Of a stretch of 37,817 nucleotides of DNA, positions 1,259-37,817 are shown one piece after another (positions within the stretch are counted from its first letter, which is position 1; every line of letters starts with the position of its first letter). Location: IMG/VR virus record IMGVR_UViG_3300021963_000312, positions 1 through 37,817 of that record. One strand, given 5' to 3'. Made by a program: the position numbers and the translations under genes. Origin of the DNA: a virus. Below the pieces are notes generated by a model that was not told where the DNA came from, did no database searches, and worked only from the letters and a program-made list of their open reading frames with translations.

Positions 1259-1688
1259 GTGCCTCTGCTAACTTTATTAGATCTTCTTTGGTGTTTAATT
1301 CTAGCAACATATCAATCTCGCTGGATTTCAGCAAAGGATAAATGCCACTAACAAAATCTCTAACTTTATCTTTTTTCTTTTTACTGTTAGGTGGTTTAAT
1401 GTAAGGATGGAATTCAACTTTGCCAGACCCTGCCGCAGTCATCAATAGCCACTGTAGTTCTGGATGCTTACTAACATCGCTAAAGTTTTTGTTAACAAGT
1501 TCATTAATCATAAACAAATAATGTGCGGCATTACGACCTTGTGCGCTACTAGCATAACGCATCATCATCCAAGGTACAAATGCTTTCTTCTGTTCATCAG
1601 TCAAGCGACTATAAAAGCTTCTGTCCTTTTTGTCCAGTGCTGCCATAATATCTTTTAATGGAATAGCAGGTTCTTTTTTAGTTGTCAT
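1215..1688 (-). CDS. Probable clamp-loader small subunit, gp62-like (157 aa)
   Basis: I chose the ATG at 1688 (MTTKKEP) because it overlaps the metK stop as ATGA; the longer frame would extend into metK. The pattern 'AFVPWMMMRYASS...NAAHYLFMINELVN...HPELQWLLMTA' followed by a basic KKKKDK segment, and a C-terminal 'NTKEDLIKLAEAHGYDDKSIKDIFG', recalls T4-like gp62, which joins gp44 to load the sliding clamp gp45. The length is close to T4 gp62 (187 aa). The call rests on remembered pattern rather than alignment, and gp44 and gp45 are not in this window to support it. A conserved marine phage hypothetical is the alternative. Confidence 0.45.
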   Translation of the reverse strand: MTTKKEPAIPLKDIMAALDKKDRSFYSRLTDEQKKAFVPWMMMRYASSAQGRNAAHYLFMINELVNKNFSDVSKHPELQWLLMTAAGSGKVEFHPYIKPPNSKKKKDKVRDFVSGIYPLLKSSEIDMLLELNTKEDLIKLAEAHGYDDKSIKDIFGK

Positions 1689-2791
1689 AATTTGATATCT
1701 AAGTCTACTTGTTCCCAAGGAAGATGATTCTTGCCAAAATGTCCATAGTTTGTAGTATCTGTTAATTGTACACTAAACAGGTCGAACTTGTCAATGATTC
1801 CTTTTGGCGTGAGGTCAACATTTTTTAGAATCCAATCAGTAAGCTCTCGACTGTTGCCATTGCTTTCAACATAAAAGCTCATTGGTTCTTTAACACCAAT
1901 TGCATAGCTAACTTGGCATGTGGCCCAGTCTGCATATCCACCTGCAACAATGTTCTTAGCCAAGTAACGCATCATATAAGCGGCACTGCGGTCTACTTTG
2001 GTAGGGTCCTTTCCACTAAAAGCACCACCGCCATGAGGACTATAGCCGCCGTAAGTATCGACGATGATTTTTCGTCCTGTGAGGCCTGCATCCCCATCAG
2101 GGCCGCCAATAACAAAACGGCCAGTAGGATTAATGTAAAACTCAGTGTCATTATCTAGTAACTCCTTAGGAAGAACTTGTCTAATAATTGCTTCTACTGC
2201 ATTACGAACGCTTTGTATAGTTACATCTGGGCTATGCTGTGTTGAGCATACCACCTTTGCAATACGCTTTACTGTAGCATCGTCATTGTATTCCATAGTA
2301 ACCTGACTCTTAGCATCGGGACCTAGCCATGTGCCATTAGCAGACTTGCGAGCTTGCGCCAATGTTTCTACAATACAATGGCTCCAATAAATTGCTGCCG
2401 GCATGTAGTTAGGTGTTTCACGGCAAGCATAGCCAAACATGAGGCCTTGGTCGCCGGCGCCAAAATCATCAGTACCCAATGCGATATCTGCACTTTGTGG
2501 ATGTAGTTCGTTGTAGATTTTTAGATGCTGCCAATGAAAGCCTTCTTGCTCGTAACCAATACGTTTAACAGTGTTACGCACAATATCTGCAATCACACTC
2601 TTGTCAATTTCTTTAGTACTCTTATACTCACCAGCTAATGTTACCATGTTAGTAGTAACCAGTGTTTCTATTGCGGCTCGATGAGCGGTATTCTTATCTA
2701 GAATATATGTTGCTACTGCATCGCTAATTAGGTCTGCGACCTTATCTGGATGCCCTTCACTTACGCTTTCACTTGTAAACAAATAACTCAT
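1685..2791 (-). CDS. metK: S-adenosylmethionine synthetase (MetK), 368 aa
   Basis: MetK makes S-adenosylmethionine from methionine and ATP. The signature motifs are intact: SEGHPDK at residues 11-17, GAGDQG at 111-116, a lysine in DAKSQVT near 161, and the P-loop-like GGGAFSGKDPTKVDRSAAY at 254-272 with both lysines. Cellular enzymes are about 384 aa, so this is essentially full length and looks active. The ATG at 2791 follows AAGGA and overlaps the apt stop (ATGA). Phages normally rely on host SAM. A phage copy beside adenine phosphoribosyltransferase, with a radical SAM enzyme elsewhere in the window, suggests it raises SAM supply during infection (inference). Base composition is not obviously different from its neighbours. 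Confidence 0.96.
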   Translation of the reverse strand: MSYLFTSESVSEGHPDKVADLISDAVATYILDKNTAHRAAIETLVTTNMVTLAGEYKSTKEIDKSVIADIVRNTVKRIGYEQEGFHWQHLKIYNELHPQSADIALGTDDFGAGDQGLMFGYACRETPNYMPAAIYWSHCIVETLAQARKSANGTWLGPDAKSQVTMEYNDDATVKRIAKVVCSTQHSPDVTIQSVRNAVEAIIRQVLPKELLDNDTEFYINPTGRFVIGGPDGDAGLTGRKIIVDTYGGYSPHGGGAFSGKDPTKVDRSAAYMMRYLAKNIVAGGYADWATCQVSYAIGVKEPMSFYVESNGNSRELTDWILKNVDLTPKGIIDKFDLFSVQLTDTTNYGHFGKNHLPWEQVDLDIKL

Positions 2792-25507: not shown

Positions 25508-26665
25508 TTAGAACGTACTAATTAGAATAATGTGCTCATTCAACCTACCATTCATGCATGTTTCTGTAGCACGAATCTCGTCAAACTGCTTTTGCATTTT
25601 AGTTCTAGATAGTTTGTTTGCACCTTTTAATAGCTCTGGCTTACGCACAGTTTTGCATACGCTCTTCTTAGGATCAAAGCCCACAATACTTGTACCTTTA
25701 ATACTTAGTACTTGTGCCATAGAATCTGCTACATAACAACCTAGTTTTCGATTCTTTGAGTTATATACCCACAGAATACTGCTATCAATGATGCTTAAAG
25801 GATTAACACTTGCTAGCCCGATACTTGGCTCGCTTTCTTTAAACTTAATTTTGGAGATTAGCTTTTCTTTGCTAGGTGCTTTCTTAACACGTGGTTTGCG
25901 AACAGCTTTACCGGTGTTGATAAATGTATCACAAGCAACCATAATCTTTTCATAAAATGCTAAAAATTCTTTGCGCTTTTTAGCAGTCATATAGGAATAG
26001 CCTTCCTTAATCTGCTCATCCTTCCATGCTACAACTTCTTGTGCTTCTTGATATTGATTCCAATACATGTCTTTGATAATCTTAGCATGAGCTGCCTTGA
26101 TTACACTAGAGTTATAAGTTTGCATCTGTGTGTGAGGATCAAACTTAGCTAACTCAAAATCATTACCAAAACATAACTGATCAACACAGTCATCCCATGT
26201 AGCACAAAGGCCAGTTACTTGCTCTTTCATCCTGTCTTGAATTGACATAACAGGCATTTTAACTTTTTCTACATCAACTGCTTTTTTTACTTTAGCAAGT
26301 TTTTCTGCTTTCACTAAGAGTTCTTTGTATCGTTCTTCTAAATACGTATGAGTGGAATCTTCAAGCTCTGCACCTTTGGTAGCCAAATATGCATACTTAC
26401 CAATAGACGCAAATTCATAGTCGGGCAATACTCTGAGTACTGCGGATTTCTTTTTATCAAAACGTTCTGCGTATTTAAGAAAACTAGTGACTAATGTTTT
26501 GAGAGGTACTTCATAGTGGACAAAGTACATAGCGTCACTGAGTAAACGCTTATAATCCATCAAAACGCCATTGGAGTTTTTAAAAGGTTTAATATCTTTT
26601 TTTACCAGACCCCATTCGGGCATGGAAAATCCATTAATAGAAAGATTACGTTTTGCTTTTGCCAT
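25508..26665 (-). CDS. Conserved marine T4-like phage protein, unknown function (385 aa)
   Basis: I chose the ATG at 26665 (MAKAKRNLSI); an upstream in-frame TTG at 26683 would overlap the radical SAM gene. The protein is Lys-rich and helical, with a long central coiled-coil-like part, a basic linker (RKPRVKKAPSKEK) and a C-terminal domain with 'ILWVYNSKNRKLGCYVADS' and 'LSIKGTSIVGFDPKKSVCK'. I recall the 'L..YN.K.RKLG.Y.A' and 'SVKGT.I..FD' pattern from conserved hypothetical proteins of cyanophages. Function unknown. It is the last gene of the late metabolic operon and is probably not part of that pathway. Confidence 0.7.
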   Translation of the reverse strand: MAKAKRNLSINGFSMPEWGLVKKDIKPFKNSNGVLMDYKRLLSDAMYFVHYEVPLKTLVTSFLKYAERFDKKKSAVLRVLPDYEFASIGKYAYLATKGAELEDSTHTYLEERYKELLVKAEKLAKVKKAVDVEKVKMPVMSIQDRMKEQVTGLCATWDDCVDQLCFGNDFELAKFDPHTQMQTYNSSVIKAAHAKIIKDMYWNQYQEAQEVVAWKDEQIKEGYSYMTAKKRKEFLAFYEKIMVACDTFINTGKAVRKPRVKKAPSKEKLISKIKFKESEPSIGLASVNPLSIIDSSILWVYNSKNRKLGCYVADSMAQVLSIKGTSIVGFDPKKSVCKTVRKPELLKGANKLSRTKMQKQFDEIRATETCMNGRLNEHIILISTF

Positions 26666-26666
26666 T

Positions 26667-28556
26667 TTAGTCAGTTGCCTCAATTACGTTTAAGACCCAT
26701 TGTCTACGACGCCCATACACTATATTATCTAAGTGTTGATTGATTGTCGTAGGAAAATGATTATATCTGTCTTTTGCATAATATGTATACTCGTTGTGTA
26801 CTATTGTTTGGGCAGTGTTTTGAACGTACTCAAATAAATTTGTTTTAGTAGATAACATTTTTGGGTTATTTGAGTATTCACCCCACTGCTTGACTCTATG
26901 CTGTGTTATAATAGCATAATCATGTAGAATGTCAAGATCTGTTTTTGGGTAAGTGTCCTTTACAAAATTGGATACAAGCTCTACAAACGAATTTACCGAA
27001 TTACTCGAGTGCATGAATAGCGACAAACTGTGCGGCACTTGCCAGCTTAGTACCTTAGTATTATCAGTCTCAACAAAAAAGAAACCCGTTTCTTCCCACT
27101 TATAGAAAGCTGTTTCTAATGAGTTTTTCCAATCGGCAAATAGTTTATTATTATTGGTAACATATTTAATCAACTTAGAATAAAATTCAGTGTAGCTAAT
27201 ATTATTTAATTTATTTAAATATATTGCAATAATATCTGAGATGCCGTAAATGTGAAAGCCTAATACTGCCCAAGTATATAAAAACATTTCGTATAAATCA
27301 GAATTAGTTAAAGTACTAGATGACTTAATAACAGGTATACCTTCTAAAATATTGTTGTTTTCAACAATGTTTGCAGTTTCGTAAAATAAATCGTATGCTA
27401 AAAATGTTTTCATGTCATAACGATTCATATCATGTGTCATTGGTGCGTTTTCTAAAATCTGCAGAAAAAATGCATCTATGCCGTTATGTAAATTAGAATT
27501 TAAAATTTTTTCTATATTGTTTTTCCAACTATCTACAGTTTCTCCAGGAAGTCCTAGTATTACTTCAGTAAAAATAGGTACTTGAAGTTGTCTTCCATAG
27601 TCAGCAATATTAGAAATATCGTTGACATCCATATTTGTTCTTTTAATGTTTTTTAATACATCATCTGTTGTAGTTTGTAAACTTAAAATAAATCCAGTTT
27701 GAATATTTGCTTCTTTAAATTTTTTTACTATTGCAAACACATCAGCATTACTGTTTTTAGCATAGCTTACACTGATGCCTGTAGGATAACCGGTATCTAA
27801 CGATAATTTAACAATTTTATCAGCTATTAATGCATCACGTTCTTTAAAGATACCAAAGTTAGCATTAGTCATGGTAAGAAATGGCATCTTCATTTTGCTA
27901 AACCATTCAAGTTCTGCAAACACACGCTCTAATCCAAACTTAATAACTTTACTTGCTGTCATGCTACCCCAGTCGCAAAAGGTACATTTATACGGACAGC
28001 CTCTGTCTGTTTCTAATGTAGGCATCCATTCTATATCGGGGTACTGTTCTATCAATTGATCAAAAATGCCGTCTAGATACGGACTAGGAACATTTAAATC
28101 TTTTATACGATCAGCTTTTATAATTTTAGGAATGTCTTTATTGTCAATTAATTTTATCAATATATCTTTGACAGCTTGCTCGCCTTCGCCCACAACTATA
28201 GTGTCAATAAATGAAAACTTAGAAAAAATATCTGAATTTTTATGTGGTAACTCGGGACCACCGAATACTGTTATTAAATTTGGATTAGCTTGTTTTAATT
28301 GTTCAGCTAACTTGTAACAATAATTTTTATTCCATACGTATATACTGAAAAATACTATGTTACAAGTTTTTAATTTTTCAACAGAAACGTCAAGTGGATC
28401 TCGTCTAAAAATCCAACTGACTGTGTGTACAGCGTTTGCTATTTTTTCAGCTTGTTTAGCATATGCCCATAGCAAGCCTACACTATAAGGCAAATAATAT
28501 GCGTTAAGGTGTTTGGGCCCGGTCTGAAAATTTGGCTGAACTAGGCCGATATGCAT
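26667..28556 (-). CDS. B12-binding radical SAM enzyme (629 aa)
   Basis: The N-terminal 150 residues have the layout of a cobalamin-binding domain ('PYSVGLLWAYAK', 'IVFFSIYVWN', 'TVFGGPELPHKN', 'TIVVGEGEQAV'). A radical SAM core follows with 'TDRGCPYKCTFCDWG', giving CxxxCxxC at C187, C191 and C194 for the 4Fe-4S cluster, and 'EVILGLPGETVDSW' downstream. The C-terminal 230 residues are a separate, unrecognised domain. Such enzymes perform difficult methylations or rearrangements and consume SAM; the substrate cannot be read from the sequence. The gene follows the epimerase by 2 nt in the late operon. The window also carries metK, which could supply its SAM (inference). Confidence 0.9.
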   Translation of the reverse strand: MHIGLVQPNFQTGPKHLNAYYLPYSVGLLWAYAKQAEKIANAVHTVSWIFRRDPLDVSVEKLKTCNIVFFSIYVWNKNYCYKLAEQLKQANPNLITVFGGPELPHKNSDIFSKFSFIDTIVVGEGEQAVKDILIKLIDNKDIPKIIKADRIKDLNVPSPYLDGIFDQLIEQYPDIEWMPTLETDRGCPYKCTFCDWGSMTASKVIKFGLERVFAELEWFSKMKMPFLTMTNANFGIFKERDALIADKIVKLSLDTGYPTGISVSYAKNSNADVFAIVKKFKEANIQTGFILSLQTTTDDVLKNIKRTNMDVNDISNIADYGRQLQVPIFTEVILGLPGETVDSWKNNIEKILNSNLHNGIDAFFLQILENAPMTHDMNRYDMKTFLAYDLFYETANIVENNNILEGIPVIKSSSTLTNSDLYEMFLYTWAVLGFHIYGISDIIAIYLNKLNNISYTEFYSKLIKYVTNNNKLFADWKNSLETAFYKWEETGFFFVETDNTKVLSWQVPHSLSLFMHSSNSVNSFVELVSNFVKDTYPKTDLDILHDYAIITQHRVKQWGEYSNNPKMLSTKTNLFEYVQNTAQTIVHNEYTYYAKDRYNHFPTTINQHLDNIVYGRRRQWVLNVIEATD

Positions 28557-28558
28557 AA

Positions 28559-29515
28559 CTATTTTCCGATACTAAATTTCTTTTTAGCGTTAAATTCTAC
28601 TTTATTGTCAACAATGTTACGCCATACTGCGATGGTTCTGTCCAGTCCATCATTTAGATCAACCTTAGGATACCAGCCTAAACGAGCTGTAATTTTATTG
28701 TTAGTGCTGTTAAGTAAATAAATCTCACCGGGACGTTTTGGTTTTGTATTCCAATTAACATGTCCGTCCCAGCCTACCTTATCAGCAATAATCTTTACAT
28801 AATCTTTGATCTTAAGTGCATTGCTTGGCCCAATACAAAAAATTTCGCCAGCGCACTTTGTGGGATTGTTAATTACTGTTTCCCATGCATCTAACAAATC
28901 ATCGATATAGATAAAGTTACGATATGGTTCGCCGTAGCCTAAATTAATTTCCTTAGGGTTAGTTAACATTTGATAAATGATTTGTTCTGTAACAAAAAAG
29001 TTATTATCTTTGCGGCCATATGCATTTGTTTGACGGATGGCAGTAAAGGGCAAGCCGTAACTGCGATGTGCGTATTCTAAATATTTTTCGCAAGCATACT
29101 TTGCTACAGCATAAGGTGCATTAGGGTTCGGAGGGGTGCTTTCATCAAATGCAAAAATACTTTTTTCTTTACCGTCCCTAATTAAATCGCTAATAGGTTG
29201 CCATCCATAAACTTCCATGGTGCTAGCAAACACAAAGTTTTTAAAGTTTGGTAAGTCTTTAGCTACTTCAATTAAATTGACAGTGCCGGTATAGTTAATA
29301 TCACTGAATGTAATTTGTTCATAGAAGCTTTGCTCTACTTCAGTTCGGGCAGCAAGGTGAACAATAATTTCAGGACTAAACTGCCTAATTTGAAATCCTA
29401 CTTTATCGTGATCCCTGAGATCATGTTCTAAAAAACAAAGTTCATGTTTTTCTTTTAAACGTTCAACTAAATGTTGACCAATAAATCCGTCGTGTCCTGT
29501 GATAAAAATTTTCAT
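28559..29515 (-). CDS. NAD-dependent nucleotide-sugar epimerase/dehydratase (318 aa)
   Basis: An extended short-chain dehydrogenase/reductase. The nucleotide-binding 'FITGHDGFIGQHL' is at residues 4-16, S98-T99 are in 'VFASTMEVYG', and the catalytic Y135xxxK139 is in 'APYAVAKYACEKY'. 'RQTNAYGRKDNN' and 'YGEPYRNFIYIDDLLDAWE' are typical of UDP- or GDP-sugar epimerases and dehydratases. Length is normal (about 310-340 aa). The exact sugar cannot be told. The ATG overlaps the upstream oxygenase stop (ATGA). In this operon it suggests that the pathway acts on an activated sugar. Confidence 0.9.
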   Translation of the reverse strand: MKIFITGHDGFIGQHLVERLKEKHELCFLEHDLRDHDKVGFQIRQFSPEIIVHLAARTEVEQSFYEQITFSDINYTGTVNLIEVAKDLPNFKNFVFASTMEVYGWQPISDLIRDGKEKSIFAFDESTPPNPNAPYAVAKYACEKYLEYAHRSYGLPFTAIRQTNAYGRKDNNFFVTEQIIYQMLTNPKEINLGYGEPYRNFIYIDDLLDAWETVINNPTKCAGEIFCIGPSNALKIKDYVKIIADKVGWDGHVNWNTKPKRPGEIYLLNSTNNKITARLGWYPKVDLNDGLDRTIAVWRNIVDNKVEFNAKKKFSIGK

Positions 29516-30057
29516 GTAATGTCCTCTAATTTGGCAAAGCCTGTGAGTTGCATAGTGTATCTATTTATATAACCTAAATTAGCTACACTATGGATTTTAT
29601 TAGGTGTAATAATTGCAAAGTCGCCTTGCTTATAATCATCTAGAAATCGTCCTTCCATTTCAAACATATGTCCAAGTTCTTTATTTTGTAAAAACAAGTT
29701 GATTCGAACTGGGTATAACATTGAAACATCTAGTTTTTCGTCTGATAGTTTTTGTCGTATGCGATATAATGTATCCTGATGAGGCGGTATAAAACATCCT
29801 GGGGTCAATTTATTAATTGTAACCATACTGTATTTAAGCCAGCTATCAAATAAATTTTTAACGTTATTTGCCCAAGCTGGGCAAGTATCTCCAAACGTTT
29901 GATATACTATGTCAGCATCAACTGGAAAATTAGGTGTACTTGTTCCTAATGTTTTCCAATAGCCGCCGGCTTCCCTAGTTTTTGTTTTTTCAGTAAAAAC
30001 TAGTTCTTCTAACATATCATATGTGATATGAGAAATATCAACATGGCCTCTTATCAT
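29512..30057 (-). CDS. Fe(II)/2-oxoglutarate-type hydroxylase, copy 1 (181 aa)
   Basis: The double-stranded beta-helix pattern of aspartyl/asparaginyl hydroxylase-like enzymes is visible. HxD is at H93-D95 in 'FIPPHQDTLYR', a distal His is at 156 in 'TPNKIHSVANLG', and R118 in 'YPVRINLFLQN' could contact 2-oxoglutarate. The N-terminus (MIRGHVDISHITYDMLEEL) parallels that of the next upstream gene, so the two are probably tandem paralogues. It overlaps its neighbours by 4 nt on both sides. The substrate is unknown; small HxD...H oxygenases are common in marine phages. Confidence 0.75.
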   Translation of the reverse strand: MIRGHVDISHITYDMLEELVFTEKTKTREAGGYWKTLGTSTPNFPVDADIVYQTFGDTCPAWANNVKNLFDSWLKYSMVTINKLTPGCFIPPHQDTLYRIRQKLSDEKLDVSMLYPVRINLFLQNKELGHMFEMEGRFLDDYKQGDFAIITPNKIHSVANLGYINRYTMQLTGFAKLEDIT

Positions 30058-30542
30058 GTTAATACTGTCACCTGAGCTGAATAAAAAGGTTCGTCACCCA
30101 TGTTGCCGGCAAGGTGCCAGTCATTGGTTCCAAATTTAACCCAGTCGCCTTTACGCCATTTTGTATAAGGCTGATCATGTACTTCATAATAGTGACCGCG
30201 CTTCCAATCTTCTAAAAAGATTAAATATCGAAAACTCTCACCAGCGCCAAACTGCTTTTTAAGCATATAATGTTTGTCTATATGATAAGGAATAGTTTGA
30301 CCAGGATCAATGTTAACGACACTTACAACATAATGTTTAAAGTCTTGCGGTATCTTACCTGATAATTCTTTAATAAAATCTGGACACTTGTCATCAAACA
30401 TTTGCCAAATACTACTATTATATTTTGTGTAGTATTTTTCGATATTAGGCGTTTGTTGATAACACTGAAAATAGTCAGTGAAGTTTATAGATCTTAATTG
30501 ATCTACTGTTACATCAGTGTCTAAATGTCCGTACTCAATCAC
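30054..30542 (-). CDS. Fe(II)/2-oxoglutarate-type hydroxylase, copy 2 (162 aa)
   Basis: Same fold and layout as its downstream neighbour: H87-D89 in 'TIPYHIDKHY', R105 in 'ESFRYLIFLEDW', and a distal His143 in 'FGTNDWHLAGNMGD'. The start is GTG at 30542, supported by GAGAG just upstream inside the last codons of the amidinotransferase gene; no alternative ATG lies near. The N-terminus (MIEYGHLDTDVTVDQLRSI) matches copy 1 in pattern. Two related oxygenases in a row suggest two successive hydroxylations or two substrates (inference). Confidence 0.75.
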   Translation of the reverse strand: MIEYGHLDTDVTVDQLRSINFTDYFQCYQQTPNIEKYYTKYNSSIWQMFDDKCPDFIKELSGKIPQDFKHYVVSVVNIDPGQTIPYHIDKHYMLKKQFGAGESFRYLIFLEDWKRGHYYEVHDQPYTKWRKGDWVKFGTNDWHLAGNMGDEPFYSAQVTVLT

Positions 30543-31593
30543 AATAGCTCTCTAATGTACCTTTACGTCTAAGATCAAGCGTAGCACAATGAATACCACC
30601 GCTGAGCGTCATACTGTGACGGAAGCGAACTGGTACGCTGTCGATGCCGTGCTTGTCAAGTTCACGCATTAGTGGTTCTTGTGCGCTGTCGCAGATGATT
30701 GTGTTTTCGTTAACACTAAGAATATTCATACCAATATAAGGACTGCAAGGAGCAATATAACCTTGATCGGCAAGTTTACTACCTTGTACTACACAATCAT
30801 CAAACCAAATCTTATCCCACTTCTTAAAGATTTCAGGGCAGTTGTCAGGTGTTACTCGTGTACTGTTTAGCAGTACTAGACCCGGACGTAGAGGAACAAT
30901 TGTGCTGTCAAAGTGGGCAAAGCTATAGAGCTCACTATAGTGTAATTTGTAACCCATTGGTTCTAAGAAACGCTTGAGCCATTTAAAGCCCTTCATGTTA
31001 CCACTGTTGCTAACTTGATAAAGTAAGTCTCGGCCAACACGAACAATATTAGGAGCATCAAAACAAATTTCATGATCCATTAGTGTTGCTTTTTTAAGAT
31101 TCTCAAACTGATACATATTATCATGTAATTTGGGTTTAGGTGCCTGCAACCACAAAGCACCATCTTCAAATGCTTCGTAAAGGATATCTTCGTATAACCG
31201 TGTTTCAAAATATCTAGCACGAACTGGTGTAGGTGTTTCAATCAACATATCGCCTAGCGGTAAAATTAAATCGCGTGGGCACCAACTATACCAGCCTTTA
31301 GTATTCCATCCTTGGCCGATGTCGTAATTAACATTATCCCAATCAATAATTTTAGGGCGATGTACTTTTACACCCATCTTAGTAAGTGTATCCGCTAGGC
31401 CATCTGCATCTTCATTAGCTTCATCAATTACCCATTGAGGATAAGTGCCTTCTAAATGTTTAATTTTTTCAGCAGGATGATTAGCATAGCTAAAACTATG
31501 TGCGCTGATGTCTGTGGCAATGCGACTGTGATGTGCATGGCCTACGATAATTTCCTCTAAAGGATCCCAGTCATTGTGTGAATTTACGATCAT
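30535..31593 (-). CDS. Glycine amidinotransferase-family enzyme (352 aa)
   Basis: This family moves the amidino group of arginine to an amine, giving a guanidino product and ornithine. The match is strong: 'GDMLIETPTPVRARYFETRL', 'CFDAPNIVRVGRDL' with Asp179, 'FAHFDSTIVPLRPGLVLLN' with His227, and the end 'TLSGGIHCATLDLRRKGTLE' with catalytic Cys336. The end closely parallels human AGAT as I remember it. AGAT makes guanidinoacetate; relatives act on inosamine phosphates in aminoglycoside synthesis, so the acceptor is open. I chose the ATG at 31593, which overlaps the upstream stop (ATGA). All catalytic residues are present, so it should be active. Confidence 0.93.
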   Translation of the reverse strand: MIVNSHNDWDPLEEIIVGHAHHSRIATDISAHSFSYANHPAEKIKHLEGTYPQWVIDEANEDADGLADTLTKMGVKVHRPKIIDWDNVNYDIGQGWNTKGWYSWCPRDLILPLGDMLIETPTPVRARYFETRLYEDILYEAFEDGALWLQAPKPKLHDNMYQFENLKKATLMDHEICFDAPNIVRVGRDLLYQVSNSGNMKGFKWLKRFLEPMGYKLHYSELYSFAHFDSTIVPLRPGLVLLNSTRVTPDNCPEIFKKWDKIWFDDCVVQGSKLADQGYIAPCSPYIGMNILSVNENTIICDSAQEPLMRELDKHGIDSVPVRFRHSMTLSGGIHCATLDLRRKGTLESYCD

Positions 31594-32462
31594 GTGTTTA
31601 TGTCTCCAAGATATTCGCTTAAACAAACCCTATTGTTATGTAGAATACCTCTATTAAAATGTTTATATTCTTCGCCGCCTAAACCAAAAATTACTGTATC
31701 AGTATATACTAAGTTTTTTTCTTTGCAGATTTTTTCGTAGTTTTCTTGGTGTGTTTCCCAATTCCAATCTGGACTAAAACTTTTCATAAAGTGAACGCCT
31801 AAGCTCATGCTGAATTTATTTTGCATATCCACTTCATTTAACATACTTATTCCGTCATCAGCATAAGTTTTAGTAAACCTGATTCCTACCCTATGATTTT
31901 CCAATGTATAAAACGGCTTACTAAGACTACAGGTTATTTCTTGTATTGCTGGATAGCTTAAATCGAGATGTATATTTTTAGATATACCCCAATATGCTAA
32001 ATCTAAACAAACAGGAATATCATTTATAGCGCATAAATTTAAGATATCTTTAAACTCTGGATGCATACATCCATAGTCGCTAAAAGGAATACTAATTAAT
32101 AGTGCATGTAACCCTTTACCTTGTATTTTATTTACAAGGTCATCATAGTTATTAGCATATGTAAAGTTAATATGTTTACCTAAACATGCATGATATTGAA
32201 AGTCTCCCGTTAAACAGATAATTTGTTTGTCCGATGCATGTTTTAAAATAAAATGATCAAATGTCTGACTGGTACCTTGTGTATAATCAGCAAACTCAAA
32301 TTCATCTAAACCTTTTATGGTTTTTGTATCAGAATATTCAAGCCAATCTCTCCATACATTTTCGTACTCGTCTAACCCTATATCTCTATAAATATGGGAG
32401 ACGTGATGTTGTTGTAGTTCGGTATGTTTTATCGGGCGGGCGCCCCTAACAGCTTTACTCAT
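31590..32462 (-). CDS. PLP-dependent aminotransferase-like protein, short (290 aa)
   Basis: Fold-type I features are visible: 'ALLISIPFSDYGCMHPEFKD', 'IPVCLDLAYWG' with an Asp (about 154) in place to hold the PLP pyridine, and 'EITCSLSKPFYTLENHRVGIRF' (two parts) with Lys182 as the Schiff-base candidate. At 290 aa it lacks much of the C-terminal small domain of a typical 380-420 aa enzyme, so activity is uncertain. I chose the ATG at 32462 (MSKAVRGARP) over one at 32468 because a late box ends exactly 5 nt before it. It is the first gene of the late metabolic operon. Other PLP enzyme types remain possible. Confidence 0.7.
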   Translation of the reverse strand: MSKAVRGARPIKHTELQQHHVSHIYRDIGLDEYENVWRDWLEYSDTKTIKGLDEFEFADYTQGTSQTFDHFILKHASDKQIICLTGDFQYHACLGKHINFTYANNYDDLVNKIQGKGLHALLISIPFSDYGCMHPEFKDILNLCAINDIPVCLDLAYWGISKNIHLDLSYPAIQEITCSLSKPFYTLENHRVGIRFTKTYADDGISMLNEVDMQNKFSMSLGVHFMKSFSPDWNWETHQENYEKICKEKNLVYTDTVIFGLGGEEYKHFNRGILHNNRVCLSEYLGDINT

Positions 32463-32475
32463 AGTCATATTTATT
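32463..32475 (-). promoter_or_regulatory. Late promoter of the metabolic operon, exactly 5 nt from the ATG
   Basis: AATAAATA (32475-32468), then TGACT, then the ATG at 32462. There is no Shine-Dalgarno sequence. It is divergent from the gp14 late promoter, with about 40 nt between the boxes. Confidence 0.75.
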
Positions 32476-37149: not shown

Positions 37150-37306
37150 AAGGTATAAACATTCTTTCAGCAAAATCTAAATCATTATTCTTTGCACGTT
37201 CATATACTTCTTTAGCATAATTAAAATTTGCAGTTGTTACTAATAATATATCATCGGCAACTACTGCAAATCTAGTACCTTGTCTATTACTTTCTAGTGT
37301 GATCAT
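37115..37306 (-). CDS. Small protein of unknown function (63 aa)
   Basis: The ATG at 37306 overlaps the stop of the cyclase gene as ATGA, supporting a real coupled cistron. The short protein has a beta start ('GTRFAVVADDILLVTTAN') and a helical middle ('YAKEVYERAKNNDLDFAERM'). No family is recognised. Its 3' end overlaps the converging gene. Confidence 0.5.
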   Translation of the reverse strand: MITLESNRQGTRFAVVADDILLVTTANFNYAKEVYERAKNNDLDFAERMFIPFTIQDPKPLKI

Positions 37307-37817
37307 TTTGATGTGGCTCTGTAGATGCCATCCCAGTTCTTGGGAGGACTTGATTTAAACTCATGTATACGAGCTCTCATTGCTTCGTAATATTGAGTTA
37401 GTTCACCCTTCCAACTGTGTCTCATGTCTGTAGCTAGTTTGTATGCTGTGTCCCATTCGCCATTGCGATATAGTTTTAAAAATTCTTTGTGTACTCTTTC
37501 ATCGGCTGCATCAAATTCTTCTAGCACTGTAAAAATTTGTGCTGGTTCTGTTTTGCCTTTTACTGCGAGTAAATCGAGCTCAACGACTTGGTATGCTTCT
37601 CGCACATACTCAGCCGTTTTTGGTCCGATGATGATTTTGACTCCGTATGGTTTGGATTGACCTTCGAGGCGACTAGCAAGATTAACACCATCGCCAAGAC
37701 AGGTATAGTCAAAACGCTGATCGCTGCCCATATTGCCAACAACCACAGTGTCAGTATTGATACCGAGACCCATACCAAAAGCTGGTACACCTTCTGCCTT
37801 AATTTCTGCATTGAATT
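37303..37817 (-). CDS. Class III adenylate/guanylate cyclase, C-terminal part (cut by right edge)
   Basis: The frame is open to the window edge, so the N-terminus is missing. The visible 171 residues hold the second half of a class III cyclase catalytic domain: 'GMGLGINTDTVVVGNMGSDQ', then 'LGDGVNLASRLEGQSKPYGV', with N and R of NxxxR as transition-state residues and the preceding Asp in the base-selecting position, as in adenylate cyclases. 'LLAVKGKTEPAQIFTVLEEF' and a tail of about 60 residues follow. The style resembles CHASE2-type bacterial cyclases, but the upstream domains are not visible. A phage gene making cAMP would alter host signalling (inference). That the gene is phage rather than flanking host DNA is likely but not proven here. 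Confidence 0.85.
   Translation of the reverse strand, partial: FNAEIKAEGVPAFGMGLGINTDTVVVGNMGSDQRFDYTCLGDGVNLASRLEGQSKPYGVKIIIGPKTAEYVREAYQVVELDLLAVKGKTEPAQIFTVLEEFDAADERVHKEFLKLYRNGEWDTAYKLATDMRHSWKGELTQYYEAMRARIHEFKSSPPKNWDGIYRATSK

Follow-up and report, generated by a model that had tools for sequence, protein, structure and literature searches.

A conserved late phage gene cassette around a StrB-like amidinotransferase suggests a guanidino-compound pathway

We describe six metabolic genes in a linear virus record of IMG/VR (IMGVR_UViG_3300021963_000312; the 37,817 bases analysed are called the window hereafter), and our comparisons support reading them as co-inherited parts of a late biosynthetic cassette with an active-looking amidinotransferase at its centre. 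As the central enzyme resembles the guanidino-adding enzyme of the streptomycin route, the phage probably makes a guanidino small molecule or sugar of its own. The reading that we favour, tentatively and at slightly less than an even chance, is that of a late pathway tailoring a guanidino compound on a sugar- or cyclitol-like acceptor, with decorations that vary between phages.

Gene content and genomic setting

By ORF inspection, the six metabolic ORFs run head to tail on the minus strand from 26667 to 32462 (Table 1). With starts corrected by alignment, the junctions are overlaps of 4 nt (AT-AGAT), 8 nt (AGAT-OX1), 4 nt (OX1-OX2) and 4 nt (OX2-EPI), followed by a 2-nt gap (EPI-rSAM). An earlier note on this DNA had listed these genes in this order with this tight coupling, and its start for AT is also retained, while the alignments move that of AGAT from 31626 to 31593. 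Its single operon over 25508-32462 is kept for the six genes from 26667 onwards, the seventh gene being non-metabolic and part of a virion block. As a pathway gene this seventh one was ruled out, its homologue gp292 preceding the Ad2, dNMP kinase and sheath genes in Pseudomonas phage PA5oct.

Table 1. Coordinates of the cassette genes, the flanking gene and the promoter-like sites in the window
Feature	Position	Strand	Description	Basis
AT	31590..32462	-	290 aa, PLP fold-type-I aminotransferase-like	AlphaFold2/Foldseek and motifs
AGAT	30535..31593	-	Predicted StrB-like L-arginine:X amidinotransferase	PDB 1bwd match, triad; start set from alignment
OX1	30054..30542	-	Small Fe(II)/2OG-type DSBH hydroxylase-like protein	Fold, alignment, weak Pfam match
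OX2	29512..30057	-	Second DSBH hydroxylase-like protein, OX1 paralogue	Alignment, weak Pfam match
EPI	28559..29515	-	Extended SDR, predicted NDP-sugar substrate	Pfam and motifs
rSAM	26667..28556	-	KedN5-type cobalamin-binding radical SAM protein	NCBIfam and PDB matches, motif
Flanking gene	25508..26665	-	phrog_11903, no assigned function; opens the conserved virion block	PA5oct homologue gp292
Late-promoter-like site AATAAATA	32468..32475	-	Exactly 5 nt ahead of the AT ATG (32462)	Motif and spacing as before VSP and Ad2
Exact T4 late consensus TATAAATA	29562..29569	-	Within the OX2 gene, 47 nt ahead of EPI; may act as an internal late promoter	

Judging from its T4-like virion genes (terminase, sheath, tube and the head-tail adaptor Ad2), the carrier is a large T4-like tailed phage, whose terminase and sheath are nearest to those of PA5oct (59% and 43% identical, respectively). 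In PA5oct the phrog_11903 homologue, Ad2, dNMP kinase and sheath genes stand in a row and are cassette-free in front, and in Agrobacterium phage Atu_ph07 the VSP and Ad2 homologues are divergent neighbours ~75 nt apart, as expected of an empty site. The whole records of these two phages, the nearest cultured relatives by virion genes, hold no AGAT homologue. The cassette appears to be an insertion that separates two blocks of virion genes. Hints at the host diverge: the cassette is also carried by a contig of 3.7 kb in an assembly of Synechococcus lacustris, while the closest relatives of the nucleotide cyclase fragment of the window are found in Methylophilales and Pelagibacter phages.

Late expression signals

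Late-promoter-like sites precede AT and occur within OX2 (Table 1), the latter (TATAAATA) being absent from most relatives. Ten of the 13 ATAAATA sites of the window lie at most 70 nt from a gene start. The 5-nt spacing to the ATG occurs 27 times in a 250-kb relative, against 0 to 4 times for each of the other spacings between 0 and 12, and exactly this spacing marks several virion genes. Moreover, 51 of 78 relatives have a separate ATAAATA for AGAT, which in the examples seen comes with a GGAGA-type ribosome site, an arrangement shared with the sheath gene. The T4 late consensus with one mismatch showed no enrichment over shuffles; the narrower ATAAATA core is the element enriched near gene starts. 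These signals, shared with the virion genes, make the predicted late expression of the operon well supported, as had been proposed, while the single late promoter proposed with it gives way to several sites (before AT, inside OX2 and, in many relatives, before AGAT).

Conservation among viral relatives

The AGAT scan found at least 92 viral contigs with AGAT, of which 80 were kept, and gene order was counted over the 41 loci that are complete from one flanking virion gene to the other. AT, AGAT and EPI follow the same order in all 41, a recurrence for which chance would not account; OX2 is present in 37, OX1 in 34 and rSAM in 14. Hence the gene order that the earlier note had proposed to seek in viral metagenomes was recovered for AT-AGAT-EPI, the other three genes being less constant. 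Independent occurrence of the genes or degenerate active sites, which that note had named as contrary to its reading, is not what we found, since the order is conserved and the active-site motifs are intact. A SPASM radical SAM gene on the opposite strand flanks the cassette in 22 of the 41 relatives, and other variable extras include a gene with a weak likeness to sulfotransferases, a gene of 205 aa and one of ~450 aa that many relatives have upstream of AT; to this last gene, searches by Pfam, PHROGs, PDB profile and tblastn gave no identity.

AGAT is 84-98% identical to that of the window among relatives in which identity falls to 60% for sheath, 58% for AT and 42% for OX2. Its pN is 0.02-0.12 and its pS 0.52-0.81, and because synonymous sites are thus near saturation, the sameness of AGAT reflects constraint; no other gene of the cassette is as constrained. 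A recent exchange of genes was ruled out as the source of this identity, the synonymous divergence matching that of the neighbours. Such constraint, together with the separate promotion of AGAT in many relatives, would also suit a steering of arginine by AGAT towards ornithine, for polyamines neutralising packaged DNA, with the other genes as separate passengers. However, AT and the SDR are never lost where AGAT is kept (41/41) and OX1 and OX2 only rarely, and an AT-AGAT-OX1 core stays together in other gene surroundings (loci L097/L098 and L079); we give arginine steering the smallest probability of all the readings weighed here.

A StrB-like amidinotransferase

AGAT matches phrog_25854 (E 4e-42), and its best solved relative is StrB1, the inosamine-phosphate amidinotransferase (PDB 1bwd; E 1.6e-84, 287 bits), ~100 bits ahead of SxtG, HsvA and human AGAT (175-189 bits). 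The triad of amidinotransferases is Asp254/His303/Cys407 in human AGAT numbering (PMC3684758); the corresponding Asp/His/Cys motifs FDAPN, AHFDST and GGIHC are kept in nearly all of ~95 phage copies, and the triad is also matched in the alignment of phage AGAT to 1bwd and 1jdx. By sequence, the protein is therefore a genuine L-arginine amidinotransferase homologue with its triad intact; it looks active and is predicted to transfer an amidino group from arginine.

The residues preceding the catalytic His influence which acceptor is used by AGAT, AmtA and CyrA, the latter two transferring the amidino group to amino acids, and Met302 is essential in human AGAT (PMC4887976). In our alignment, this 300-flap reads L-Y-S-F-A in the phage enzyme, L-Y-A-S-T in StrB1 and D-P-N-P-M in human AGAT, so that the predicted substrate flap of the phage enzyme is StrB-like and not of the glycine type. 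A tree of 102 sequences likewise places the phage clade on the StrB side rather than with the glycine-type, SxtG and HsvA enzymes (split support 94/91), on a separate long branch of 1.1 changes per column, and because of this long branch the acceptor may differ from that of StrB1. The former label of glycine amidinotransferase-like is thus right for the family and the triad and wrong for the glycine type, a creatine-type reading being ruled out by the flap residues and the tree. Bacterial StrB-type genes have varied, mostly uncharacterised neighbourhoods.

Partner enzymes and the choice of target

For AT, nothing was detected in Pfam or PHROG, including no Pfam DegT match. Its AlphaFold2 model (pLDDT 88.7) has class I/II aminotransferases as top Foldseek matches in the PDB (E 3.7e-11), GntC of enduracididine synthesis being one among many fold matches. 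Residues D156, Y159, K184 and R280 (numbered on the 292-aa ORF starting at 32468) are conserved, and the motifs SLSK, with the PLP Lys, and DxAY occur in nearly all relatives. AT has a short N-terminal part, and the Asn of the NPTG motif, which contacts PLP O3', is replaced by Ser in the aligned P-F-S-D-[YF]-G. The modelled fold and the PLP Lys bear out the aminotransferase-like nature first proposed: AT is modelled as a PLP fold type I protein, class I/II-like and not of the DegT/StsC type of the streptomycin route.

OX1 (AlphaFold2 pLDDT 91.5) matched cupins, EasH and AspH in Foldseek, and OX2 is its paralogue at ~24% identity; Pfam matches are weak for both (Asp_Arg_Hydrox with OX1, E 0.04). 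The DSBH fold and an HxD...H facial triad invariant in both alignments (H87, D89, H143) agree with the two Fe(II)/2OG-type hydroxylases of the earlier reading. R105, a basic residue and candidate contact of the 2OG carboxylate, is also invariant in both. OX1 has no Arg at the usual place ~10 residues past the distal His, which makes its 2OG dependence less than certain.

EPI matches the Pfam families GDP_Man_Dehyd (1.5e-42) and Epimerase (3.2e-42) and carries the motifs GxxGxxG, ASTMEVYG and YAVAK, and hence the NAD motif and YxxxK. With T-x-E and YxxxK conserved, epimerase, 4,6-dehydratase and decarboxylase activities are presumably all possible, and EPI reaches no NCBIfam equivalog cut-off. 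It is, by these features, an extended SDR predicted to act on an NDP-sugar in one of these three ways, so that the proposed NAD-dependent sugar epimerase holds as an NDP-sugar SDR with motifs kept and lapses as a named function.

The sixth protein, as read before, combines a B12-binding domain with the cluster motif CxxxCxxC (CPYKCTFC). It strongly matches the C-methyltransferases KedN5 (NCBIfam NF033712, E 8.6e-69) and TokK (PDB, E 3.4e-65), CysS being matched too, yet its 232 bits fall below the curated NF033712 cut-off of 700; it is probably a B12 radical SAM C-methyltransferase of the KedN5/TokK kind. None of 50,697 phage records held a homologue. A phage SAM synthetase, which the window shares with two relatives, was ruled out as a fixed radical SAM partner, as it is absent from the 250-kb relative.

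The 250-kb relative has 12 radical SAM matches, with an array of twitch-domain paralogues. These and the flanking SPASM genes, as well as the weak likeness of OX1/OX2 to Asp/Asn hydroxylases, would fit the modification of a virion or host protein by hydroxylation, radical SAM chemistry and amidino transfer to a side-chain or terminal amine. Roles for an NDP-sugar SDR and for AT are hard to find there, and the known amidinotransferases of the AGAT family use small molecules; to such a protein target we assign a small probability.

The same relative carries GalE, NDP-sugar dehydrogenase, NeuB-like and NodU-type carbamoyltransferase genes. In the cassette we recognised no glycosyltransferase, nucleotidyltransferase or inositol-phosphate synthase, and the families searched for revealed none in larger relatives either; GT2 and NTP_transferase had no match in the relatives of the window; the attachment step is thus missing from the cassette. 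Phage-made inositol was ruled out, no Inos-1-P synthase occurring in the relatives searched; inositol phosphate for a StrB1-type acceptor could come from the host.

The lack of a recognised glycosyltransferase in the cassette of the window would also suit a free guanidino amino acid or its kin (a hydroxylated, methylated homoarginine or an enduracididine-like compound), made without any sugar and acting on the host cell, on a competitor or on a defence system. A PLP enzyme, an amidinotransferase, two hydroxylases and a B12 methylase suit amino-acid tailoring, GntC is among the AT fold matches, and AmtA and CyrA show that amidinotransferases can act on amino acids (PMC4887976). However, an NDP-sugar-type SDR is present in 41/41 intervals and the flap is StrB-like rather than AGAT- or AmtA-like; we regard a free amino acid as unlikely, though of appreciable weight.

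DNA hypermodification, with a guanidino product on a modified base for nuclease evasion, would fit the late timing and the dNMP kinase gene just downstream of the cassette, past the adaptor gene, and Campylobacter phages with an AGAT cluster also have a QueD-like gene. However, PA5oct keeps the dNMP kinase without the cassette, and thymidylate synthase/hydroxymethylase-type and TGT/DpdA-type genes are absent from the 250-kb relative, whose record may be incomplete, and from other contigs. DNA, one of the targets first suggested, is dropped on this ground, and we hold hypermodification to be very improbable. Of the proposal of a single guanidino- or amino-modified product, the data support the co-inherited cassette.

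Proposed pathway and comparison with known systems

For the favoured guanidino tailoring of a sugar- or cyclitol-like acceptor, we infer the acceptor, the order of the reactions and the destination of the product as follows. During late expression, AT would probably make or supply the acceptor amine by transamination, and AGAT would transfer an amidino group from L-arginine, which becomes ornithine, to a primary amine, probably on the sugar- or cyclitol-like acceptor. OX1 and OX2 would hydroxylate, the SDR would make or edit an NDP-sugar, and the optional B12 radical SAM enzyme would C-methylate. Amidino transfer would be the invariant step, with decorations differing between phages, and the likely destination would be a structure on the surface of the virion or the host, such as a glycan. 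A more specific version, possible and well short of an even chance, is that a widespread large T4-like lineage builds a guanidino-aminosugar or -aminocyclitol by a streptomycin-like logic, with optional radical SAM (B12) methylation, and either exposes this compound on virions or on host envelopes or sets it free.

Phages are already known to carry genes for virion glycans and for DNA modification; our cassette, if read correctly, would be a genuine biosynthetic pathway in a phage for an undescribed natural product. A co-inherited pathway of five to six steps, whose StrB-like core is more constant than the tail sheath, suggests that the guanidino product is important in infection, and the defined, expressible gene set could be used to find it.

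The analogy with streptomycin-type aminocyclitol assembly drawn previously is sustained in part. AGAT is ~43% identical to StrB1 over its full length, with the same Asp/His/Cys and the same L-Y flap start, and StrB1 is the best PDB match, on the same side of the tree; an amidinotransferase gene is also paired with an aminotransferase gene. In contrast, the DegT partner and inositol-phosphate synthase are wanting, other str genes were not seen in the cassette and AGAT forms its own long-branched clade; what speaks most against a streptomycin-like route is the lack of a glycosyltransferase, together with an aminotransferase of the class I/II kind.

This cassette is undescribed in the open-access literature that we searched, and the nearest published system is the radical SAM-amidinotransferase cluster of Campylobacter phages CP220 and CPt10 (Firehammervirus), an interchangeable module described in 2010 (PMC2853527). 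Like ours, it is an exchangeable, phage-borne cluster with one amidinotransferase and radical SAM enzymes; CP220 has glycosyltransferase-like genes in it, and the related phage WX1 has an aminotransferase. It differs by an AGAT only 25-31% identical, by five radical SAM genes against one of B12 type here, and by having no recognised OX1/OX2 or SDR. In Synechococcus phage S-SCSM2R, a 2OG oxygenase gene adjoins AGAT (36-41% identical), with a DegT aminotransferase (AHBA-synthase-like) and a radical SAM gene nearby, whereas its cluster has at least four glycosyltransferases, no SDR or B12 radical SAM enzyme, and another place in the genome. Given these two cases, the combination of AGAT, aminotransferase and radical SAM enzyme recurs in separate phage lineages. 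Our cassette makes the amidinotransferase modules of Campylobacter phages, published without an assigned function, worth a second look.

Late-promoter-like sites and genes around the cassette

The late-promoter-like sequence NATAAATA stands exactly 5 nt upstream of the ATG of virion genes, both in the window and in G001, the 250-kb relative (L105-L117), and one such site precedes the aminotransferase-like gene (AT) that opens the cassette (32475). In G001, the 5-nt spacing occurs 27 times, versus 0 to 4 times at other spacings. This exact spacing, read from the sequence, suggests that late mRNAs are leaderless.

The window also encodes an S-adenosylmethionine synthetase, which could supply the cassette's B12-binding radical SAM enzyme; the gene is present in two relatives and was absent from the others checked.

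Features of the window and related loci
Feature	Location	Strand	Remark
NATAAATA	window 32515, 36510	+	late-promoter-like; ATG exactly 5 nt on
NATAAATA	window 25504, 14782, 32475	-	as above
S-adenosylmethionine synthetase	window 1685-2791	-	complete; three Pfam domains
Class III adenylate/guanylate cyclase	window 37303-37815	-	C-terminal part, truncated by contig end
AT duplication	L097:9412-11279	+	second copy adjoins amidinotransferase gene (AGAT)
370-490-aa family adjoining AT	L032:7720-9087; L051:8873-9976; others	+ (L032, L051)	many relatives
Twitch-domain radical SAM array	L113 (G001 160-180 kb)		~8 paralogous genes
Two paralogous repeat proteins	L109:8694-9575 (G001)	-	secreted-looking
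Synechococcus lacustris assembly contig	L118		3,736 bases; AT-AGAT-OX1-OX2-EPI

Where AT is duplicated, the second copy is only ~30% identical and retains SLSK. The family adjoining AT, with paralogues elsewhere in G001, is possibly a glycosyltransferase, and Pfam, PHROGs, PDB profile and tblastn searches gave it no identity. The radical SAM array of G001, accompanied by NeuB-like, NDP-sugar dehydrogenase and carbamoyltransferase genes, is a second, larger sugar-like cluster. By eye, the G001 repeat proteins resemble curli subunits; one of the two was searched against Pfam, with no match.

Host hints

The AGAT of the Synechococcus lacustris contig is 99% identical to that of the window. This contig is probably phage DNA present in the culture and offers at most a hint of the phage host, one at odds with the relatives of the window cyclase fragment: Methylophilales phage Melnitz and Pelagibacter phage HTVC008M both carry homologues of it.
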